Assembly: GCA_947450545.1 (NCBI GenBank)
Contig: CANFVU010000014.1
Location: forward strand, 1-32,533
Direction: 5' to 3'
Source: Actinomycetota bacterium
Lineage (GTDB): Bacteria > Actinomycetota > Actinomycetes > Nanopelagicales > Nanopelagicaceae
DNA: 32,533 bases
In this document: positions 1,374-2,255 of the stretch, one piece after another
Position numbering within the stretch: the first letter of the stretch is position 1
How the letters are laid out: each line of letters starts with the position of its first letter
Translations under genes and position numbers: made by a program
Notes under the pieces: generated by a model
The model's database searches: none
Told to the model about the DNA's origin: nothing
Seen by the model: the letters and a program-made list of their open reading frames with translations, nothing else

Positions 1374-2255
1374 GTGAGCTCACGACCTCTTCCACCTGTG
1401 CTCACGCAGGAGCAGCGGAGGGAAAATCTTCTGAAAGCAAAAGCTGCACGGATCGAACGAGCGCAGGTTAAGAATGAGATTTCGCTCAATCAGAAGTCTA
1501 TCTTCGACGCAATTAATGACCCACGAGATTCAATTCAGCGAATGAAAGTGATCGAACTACTCGAATCAATTCCAGGAGTAGGGCCTGCGCGGGCAGAACT
1601 CATCATGGAGAAGCGGAAGATTTCTTTATCGCGTAGAATCGCAGGTCTCGGGCCACATCAATTGCGTGCACTTCGGAAGGAGGTCGGCATTATGAAAGTT
1701 GATCCTCAATATGGATCGCTCATCGTGATGTCTGGACCTGGCGGAGTTGGAAAGAGCACCATCACACAACATTTAAAGAGCGATCCTCGATTCTGGGTCA
1801 GTATTTCTGCGACAACTCGTGAACCACGCACAACTGAGAAAGATGGAGTTGATTACTTCTTCGTAACCGAGAACAAATTTGATCAGATGGTTGCAAAGGA
1901 TGAATTTTTGGAATGGGCTAATTTCGCAGGAGCTCGTTACGGCACCCCACGTTCACCAGTCAATGAGTGGCGCGAGATGGGCAAACATGTCTTGCTAGAA
2001 ATTGAGATAGCCGGGGCTCGACAAATTCGCGTCAGTGATCCCACCGCTAAGTTGGTCTTCATCTCGCCTCCATCATGGGAAGAACTCGAGTCTCGACTAG
2101 CCAACAGAGGTACTGATTCGCCAGAACGTCGCGAAGCGAGGCTCGCTCTTGCGCGTGAAGAGATGGCTGCCGCCTCAGAGTTCGACCTCACCATCGTAAA
2201 TGAGCAGGTCGAGAGCGTTGTCGCTCAGATGGTATCCTTGGCGACTGCACCATAA
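1374..2255 (+). CDS. gmk: Fused actinobacterial integration host factor (mIHF) and guanylate kinase
   Basis: One uninterrupted frame of 293 residues starts at a GTG two bases after pyrF stops. Residues 1-106 form an mIHF-type nucleoid/DNA-binding module: a basic helical N-terminus, then GVGPARAELIMEK and SRRIAGLGPHQLRAL, the helix-turn-helix-like core of that family. Residues 107-293 form a full-length guanylate kinase (GMP + ATP to GDP + ADP) with P-loop GPGGVGKS at 121-128, TTREPR and DYFFV for GMP binding, and a lid around RGTDSPERREARL. In many actinobacteria mihF and gmk are separate adjacent genes. Here no stop separates them, but a strong Shine-Dalgarno and in-frame ATG lie exactly at the junction, so free Gmk (187 residues) may also be made. 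rpoZ follows 18 bases later. Confidence 0.93.
   Translation: MSSRPLPPVLTQEQRRENLLKAKAARIERAQVKNEISLNQKSIFDAINDPRDSIQRMKVIELLESIPGVGPARAELIMEKRKISLSRRIAGLGPHQLRALRKEVGIMKVDPQYGSLIVMSGPGGVGKSTITQHLKSDPRFWVSISATTREPRTTEKDGVDYFFVTENKFDQMVAKDEFLEWANFAGARYGTPRSPVNEWREMGKHVLLEIEIAGARQIRVSDPTAKLVFISPPSWEELESRLANRGTDSPERREARLALAREEMAAASEFDLTIVNEQVESVVAQMVSLATAP
1677..1694 (+). promoter_or_regulatory. Internal ribosome binding site and ATG for stand-alone guanylate kinase
   Basis: AAGGAGGT at 1677-1684 matches the anti-Shine-Dalgarno sequence over eight bases. It is followed by 7 bases and an ATG at 1692-1694, in frame with the long gene (codon 107). Translation from here gives a protein starting MKVDPQYG and reaching the P-loop about 14 residues later, the usual length of an ordinary Gmk N-terminus. 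The stretch also encodes Arg-Lys-Glu-Val, so chance is possible, but strength, spacing and position at the domain boundary argue for a real start. Confidence 0.75.

Follow-up and report, generated by a model that had tools for sequence, protein, structure and literature searches.

A fused mIHF–guanylate kinase gene in Nanopelagicaceae with a putative internal promoter and ribosome site for free guanylate kinase

In Mycobacterium tuberculosis, the nucleoid protein mIHF ranks with the most abundant proteins, its gene mihF has a −10 element of the TANNT type, and the deletion of mihF required gmk and rpoZ to be supplied, owing to polar effects (PMC6155035). A second study reports that this bacterium has leaderless transcripts with a TANNNT −10 element, and that TANNNT is found at 50% of the internal start sites, with no −35 motif (PMC3898074). 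The Tsukamurella and Collinsella records also have mihF and gmk annotated as separate genes. The production of a long and a short protein from one gene is known from infB, clpB and cheA, where an in-frame internal start is used. Here we describe a locus in which a single polypeptide combines a nucleoid protein with a nucleotide kinase, an unexpected arrangement, Gmk being a soluble enzyme.

The locus lies in a stretch of 32,533 nucleotides of a Nanopelagicaceae genome, hereafter the window. The fused gene occupies positions 1374–2255 of the forward strand (293 codons, from GTG 1374 to TAA 2255), with no stop between its two parts; the pyrF stop lies at 1371, and the GTG begins two bases later. 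Residues 8–104 (1395–1685, forward strand) form the mIHF DNA-binding module, which matches NCBIfam actino_IHF NF041260 with 92.5 bits against a curated cut-off of 60 and covers profile positions 3–101 of 102, and residues 114–290 (1713–2243, forward strand) form the guanylate kinase module, which matches guanyl_kin TIGR03263 with 217.7 bits against a curated cut-off of 160.45. The Pfam matches are concordant with both assignments, and the initial annotation was right that a single frame covers a complete mIHF and a complete Gmk. The mIHF module resembles the solved structures 4itq (SCO1480) and 6tob (MIHF), and its DNA binding is predicted from this likeness only; the best solved chain for the kinase module is 1znw, and the conversion of GMP and ATP to GDP and ADP is its predicted activity. 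The full-length fusion has a predicted mass of 32.8 kDa. The gene order is pyrD (partial), pyrF, the fused gene, rpoZ and coaBC, and beyond coaBC there are genes with SAM synthetase, PriA, deformylase and formyl transferase domains. The source genome, which is 88% complete, has one mIHF match, one guanylate kinase match and one HU match.

Matches were obtained in 55 of 60 genomes, the source genome counted (23 of the 60 are from other families), and in 272 of 296 in a wider search; the fused or split state was scored at loci from part of these matched genomes. From 160 loci we removed three without an mIHF match, one locus of another family (G054) and one repeated genome, which left 155 scored genomes: 118 fused, in 11 genera, and 37 split, in six genera, with no scored genus mixed. 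The removed G054 had appeared fused by frame length, and was rejected as a fusion because of a TGA between the two genes. Since 118 Nanopelagicaceae genomes, single-contig ones included, carry the fusion, we discard an assembly or frameshift artefact as its source. In the split genera mihF and gmk mostly abut, with an ATGA overlap or touching ends in many g35 and g40 loci; gaps separate the two genes in g6. Five-gene trees were built with FastTree on 179 of 180 loci (the repeat dropped) and with IQ-TREE on 49 loci. The split genera g6, g33, g34 and g39 fall outside in these trees, so the split state is ancestral in Nanopelagicaceae. Two groups of fused genera are distinguished below, clade A (g1, g2, g30, g31, g32 and g36; IQ-TREE support 62) and clade B (g3, g4, g5 and g37; support 99). 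Clade A is grouped with support 100 with g35 and g40, both split, and with g38, which is fused, and this group joins clade B with support 73; g35 and g40 thus nest among fused genera. The five g38 loci (L047, L048 and L050–L052) have a linker 11–12 residues longer and a start at −12/−13 without a good ribosome site, and the g38 fusion is perhaps an independent event.

The initial annotation had pointed to a near-perfect ribosome site at the junction, followed after seven bases by an in-frame ATG at codon 107 from which a Gmk of normal length could be read. All of this was confirmed: the Shine-Dalgarno (SD) sequence AAGGAGGT lies at 1677–1684 and the ATG, the predicted start of free Gmk, at 1692–1694, both on the forward strand, and the product from codon 107 would have 187 aa and 20.9 kDa. 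We then surveyed 432,533 bases of the source genome (the window plus 20 stretches), with 327 frames of at least 200 codons, excluding the first 80 and the last 20 codons of each frame. Among 4,653 in-frame internal starts, a ribosome-site match of at least six bases precedes 28, one of at least seven bases precedes three, and the sole match of eight bases is AAGGAGGT before ATG 1692. A chance pairing of ribosome site and ATG is therefore discarded, for the window by this survey and for clade A by the codon bias and SD pairing described next.

To compare junctions, codons were numbered backwards from SGP in the P-loop motif, and expected start counts were derived from the residues and codon usage. 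In clade A a start codon is present at −16 to −13 in 70 of 71 genes (45.1 expected), and at −14/−13 in 64 of 71 (29.3 expected), whereas the clade B counts are 16/42 (13.5 expected) and 6/42 (3.2 expected), respectively. The clade A residue at −14 shifts among Met, Val, Leu and Ile; of the 60 Leu or Val codons in this column, 46 are TTG or GTG, against 13.1 expected (z 10.3). This column ranks first of 65 Leu/Val columns for TTG/GTG bias and, since the other columns share the same tree, kinship alone cannot account for the bias. TTG and GTG are also enriched at +169/+162 in the Gmk part, at or near the putative rpoZ promoter discussed below. The two start positions nearly exclude each other in g2: all 10 genes that lack ATG at −13 have TTG at −14, as does one of the 10 that possess it, the other nine using other Leu codons there (Fisher p 1.2e-4, relatedness uncorrected). 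Parsimony requires at least 14 changes among five start states, absence included, but only four between presence and absence of a start. Five of the 29 g1 genes have no start at −13 to −15 and have one at −16 instead, and the g32 gene of clade A (L044) has no junction start; within clade B some start is present at −5 to −20 in 29 of 41 genes and none in 12. Met107 itself is not conserved; what is kept in clade A is a start codon, mostly TTG or GTG at the neighbouring codon.

The ribosome site follows the same division. GAG is used at −17 in 65 of 70 clade A genes against 38.6 expected, which ranks first of 39 Glu columns, and none of the 861 in-gene positions in this clade ranks above the SD core. 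Mean anti-SD pairing is stronger than under synonymous re-sampling for g1, g2, g30 and g31, but g37, g4 and g38 show no such excess: the mean pairing strengths are 10.2, 9.6 and 6.9 kcal/mol for g1, g2 and g30 against synonymous nulls of 4.1, 3.7 and 2.6, and 1.1 and 1.7 kcal/mol for g37 and g4 against nulls of 1.1 and 1.4. Single genes reach the top 5% of re-samplings in 15/29 (g1), 11/20 (g2), 6/17 (g30) and 1/3 (g31) cases. In the window's own subgroup (L001–L005) the excess is mild, with re-sampling fractions of 0.13–0.34, because the residues there already favour the SD motif. The internal start and the ribosome site are kept beyond what the residues require in clade A and not in clade B.

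A synonymous-constraint scan singled out a further kept signal, absent from the initial annotation. Within the codons for Arg87-Arg88-Ile89, CGT-AGA-AT reads TAGAAT, a putative internal −10 box at 1634–1639 of the forward strand, from which a transcript would be predicted to start near 1646. At this Arg-Arg site, 59 of the 71 genes of clade A carry TAnnnT (3.7 expected), including 17/17 in g30 and 20/20 in g2, as do 10 of the 42 of clade B (2.5 expected); the other 12 clade A genes do not have it. Among the split Nanopelagicaceae genes it occurs in 3/4 in g40 and in 0/33 of the others. Ranked by the frequency of TAnnnT over the 861 positions of the clade A gene, this site comes second. The first lies at the 3΄ end of the kinase-coding region, where TGGTATCCT (2230–2238, forward strand), of the extended −10 type, is probably the rpoZ promoter: TAnnnT is present there in 70/70 clade A and 41/41 clade B genes, at the top of 861 and 858 positions, respectively. 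A pairwise comparison of synonymous change placed the best junction windows no higher than ranks 13–19 of 284. A sigma-70 scan requiring a −35 box gave no promoter between 600 and 2700, and shuffled sequences give 2.0. In the source genome (window plus L168–L187), 51 of 313 genes have TANNNT at a distance of exactly 12 bases upstream of the start codon, against about three per position further upstream. Because of this sharp peak, TAnnnT would act as a −10 element in this genome, and the peak points to many leaderless mRNAs. As a side observation, among five g37 loci inspected, some (L108 and L109) have TAGAAT directly before the fusion start, as in leaderless genes.

The −10-like box and the internal start tend to occur together. 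The distance between the Arg-Arg motif and the P-loop is 33 in all but one of the 71 genes of clade A, and varies from 29 to 36 across the 42 of clade B. Considering all 118 fused genes, a start at −13 to −15 is present in 68 of the 70 with the box and in 14 of the 48 without it (Fisher 4e-16). For clade B alone the counts are 9/10 with the box against 7/32 without it (p 2e-4). Independent sister pairs gave five concordant cases, one discordant case and seven ties (p 0.22); when SD strength was also required the pairs were four for and two against (p 0.69), and the clade B comparison gave a Fisher p of 0.078. Taken together, the link between the box and the internal start is suggestive, not proven.

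The start of the fusion itself was studied in g1, where we took in each gene the candidate nearest to the pyrF stop, a criterion biased towards short distances; so chosen, it overlaps this stop or lies within 3 bases of it in 22 of 28 loci. The overlap was seen in 14 of the 28. The ribosome site of this start is weak (mean −3.4 kcal/mol). With a fusion start placed so near pyrF and so weakly served, Gmk supply need not track mIHF supply.

The structure model, built from seven sequences, is of low quality (pLDDT 73.6, pTM 0.51); in it the C-terminal helix of mIHF spans residues 94–107, the linker 108–112 has a pLDDT below 50, and Gmk begins at 116, which suggests two modules joined by a short tether. 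A low-confidence linker, with a length that varies in clade B, may be accessible, and M. tuberculosis has mIHF as a protein of its own (PMC6155035). A protease could thus cut the fusion into mIHF and Gmk, both being free in all species. We consider this very improbable: by eye, the junctions hold no conserved cleavage-like motif, and cleavage leaves the conservation of the start, SD and −10-like signals unexplained.

Are there fusions outside Nanopelagicaceae? The initial annotation had allowed for fused versions elsewhere, and they do exist: besides being widespread in Nanopelagicaceae, they are found in nearly all of family f78, which is presumably Microbacteriaceae, and in part of family f76. 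The protein WP_223172673.1 of Microbacterium sp. NIBRBAC000506063, annotated as 'guanylate kinase' (298 aa), begins with an mIHF part, and has the same domain order in one frame as the window gene. With this protein as query, 98 of the 100 f78 genomes searched gave matches; one uninterrupted frame covers mIHF and Gmk in 90 of the 98 and not in the other eight. With the window's protein as query, one frame covers both parts in 7 of 59 f76 genomes. A class sample gave the fusion in 20/20 f78 genomes among the matches listed, one of them a contig-edge piece. These results overturn a fusion confined to Nanopelagicaceae, and families beyond these three may hold fusions too. Two samples without any f78 member gave no fusion: in the relatives sample, all 19 scored loci of other families were split (L199 has no mIHF match), and in the phylum sample mIHF was found in 126 of 138 other genomes, the best-matching frames all being below 280 aa (longest 249). 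One genome of the phylum sample (G329) has a weak third mIHF match inside a frame of 726 aa. Five f78 genomes (G828, G907, G831, G910 and G896) have a Gmk frame of stand-alone length (186–207 aa) with no mIHF match; in these, mIHF may have been lost or the genes may be split.

Unlike the clade A genes, the f78 fusions mostly do not carry the junction signals. Among 49 fused f78 loci (L213–L233 and L274–L301), a junction start is present at −5 to −20 in eight and absent in 41, an SD pairing of −5 kcal/mol or better accompanies a junction start in one, and TAnnnT at the Arg-Arg site was found in none (0/49). The linker differs from that of the window, with few signs of an internal start. As f78 is distant from clade A and codon usage may differ, this is a contrast rather than a matched control. 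Two of the seven fused f76 loci have a junction start, both with an SD. Fusion without signals is therefore common, and clade A is the case that keeps them.

We propose that an old mihF–gmk pair had its frames merged and that gmk's own expression signals were retained in clade A, where the gene would have a dual product, the fusion and free Gmk, by means of an internal promoter and ribosome site. We give this reading a probability of roughly 75%, based on sequence comparison. Translation from GTG 1374, with its weak ribosome site, would yield the 33-kDa mIHF–Gmk fusion. The promoter inside the mIHF codons (TAGAAT) would give a shorter mRNA whose leader measures about 46 bases. On this transcript AAGGAGGT would direct initiation at ATG 1692 and the synthesis of free 21-kDa Gmk; the internal ribosome site could serve on the long mRNA too. 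As no stop follows the mIHF part, all mIHF would be made with Gmk attached. The single frame, its signals and their conservation beyond the amino acids are observed, and from these we infer that the signals are in use and what roles the two products have. In the sister genera g37 and g4 and in f78, the fusion is probably the main or sole form of Gmk. The proposal of the initial annotation that the gene yields two products therefore holds in clade A, where start, SD and −10-like box are kept beyond the residues, and mostly fails elsewhere. Fused relatives lacking both the ribosome site and the start, which would count against two products, largely make up g37, g4 and f78, and are not the rule in clade A; the answer thus depends on the lineage.

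The same signals could also be passive remnants, an old gmk start that survives by chance, unused, with the fusion as the only product. The 12 clade B genes without a start, the null-level SD pairing of g37 and g4, and the 41 f78 loci without a junction start are in line with this, since fused genes without signals make it evident that fusion-only Gmk is viable. Remnants should, however, have decayed in clade A as they did in clade B, and there the synonymous codons keep the start, the ribosome-site GAG and the −10-like box over several genera, while the start swaps between TTG, GTG and ATG and between two codons. We therefore regard unused remnants as unlikely in clade A, and retain the dual-product gene.

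What might the fusion itself be for? One view is that mIHF places Gmk at the nucleoid, for GDP/GTP supply or GMP sensing, while free Gmk serves the rest of the cell. The fusion is kept in 11 Nanopelagicaceae genera and in the 90 f78 genomes, most f78 loci being without internal signals, and a motif of each module is present in all 118 fused Nanopelagicaceae genes: the arginine-rich motif near the mIHF C-terminus reads RR..G[LVI]G in 112 and RK in six, and the P-loop is present in 118/118. Crude patterns for two further Gmk motifs, probably too strict, match only 92/118 and 105/118. In addition, g35 and g40 are split though nested among fused genera, so the tether was dispensable there or never gained, and a neutral fusion accounts for the same facts. 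A functional tether is thus doubtful, and the tether may be neutral. Equally tentative is the broader scenario in which the fusion arose more than once and is functional, with practically all Gmk bound to mIHF in f78 and in much of clade B, so that GDP/GTP supply would be coupled to the chromosome, and with a free pool provided in clade A through the overprinted cassette.

A plain 'guanylate kinase' annotation can conceal a DNA-binding half and a second product, and the Microbacterium record names only the kinase. Actinobacteria offer a natural experiment, with genes that are fused with internal expression, fused without it, or split; with these three states, the tolerance of fusions between unequally expressed genes and the value of nucleotide supply at the nucleoid become testable. 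A literature search, with subscription journals mostly outside its reach, returned no report of an mIHF–Gmk fusion, and the accessible parts of PMC2229807 and PMC9166423 were unrelated to it.

Compared with known systems, the window has the same order mihF–gmk–rpoZ as the Rv1388 region of M. tuberculosis, in one frame here and as separate adjacent genes there. TAGAAT and TATCCT fit the TANNNT promoters without −35 of the M. tuberculosis study, where the starts were established by RNA sequencing, whereas here they are deduced from conservation (PMC3898074). Long and short products from internal starts are already known. The infB, clpB and cheA type shares with our locus the single frame, the internal ribosome site and a C-terminal product that is also made alone; our locus differs in that its two domains descend from separate genes, that the short product is an entire enzyme, and that the internal start is accompanied by a promoter-like box. 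What is new is an enzyme gene merged with a nucleoid-protein gene, its expression cassette kept within the codons.
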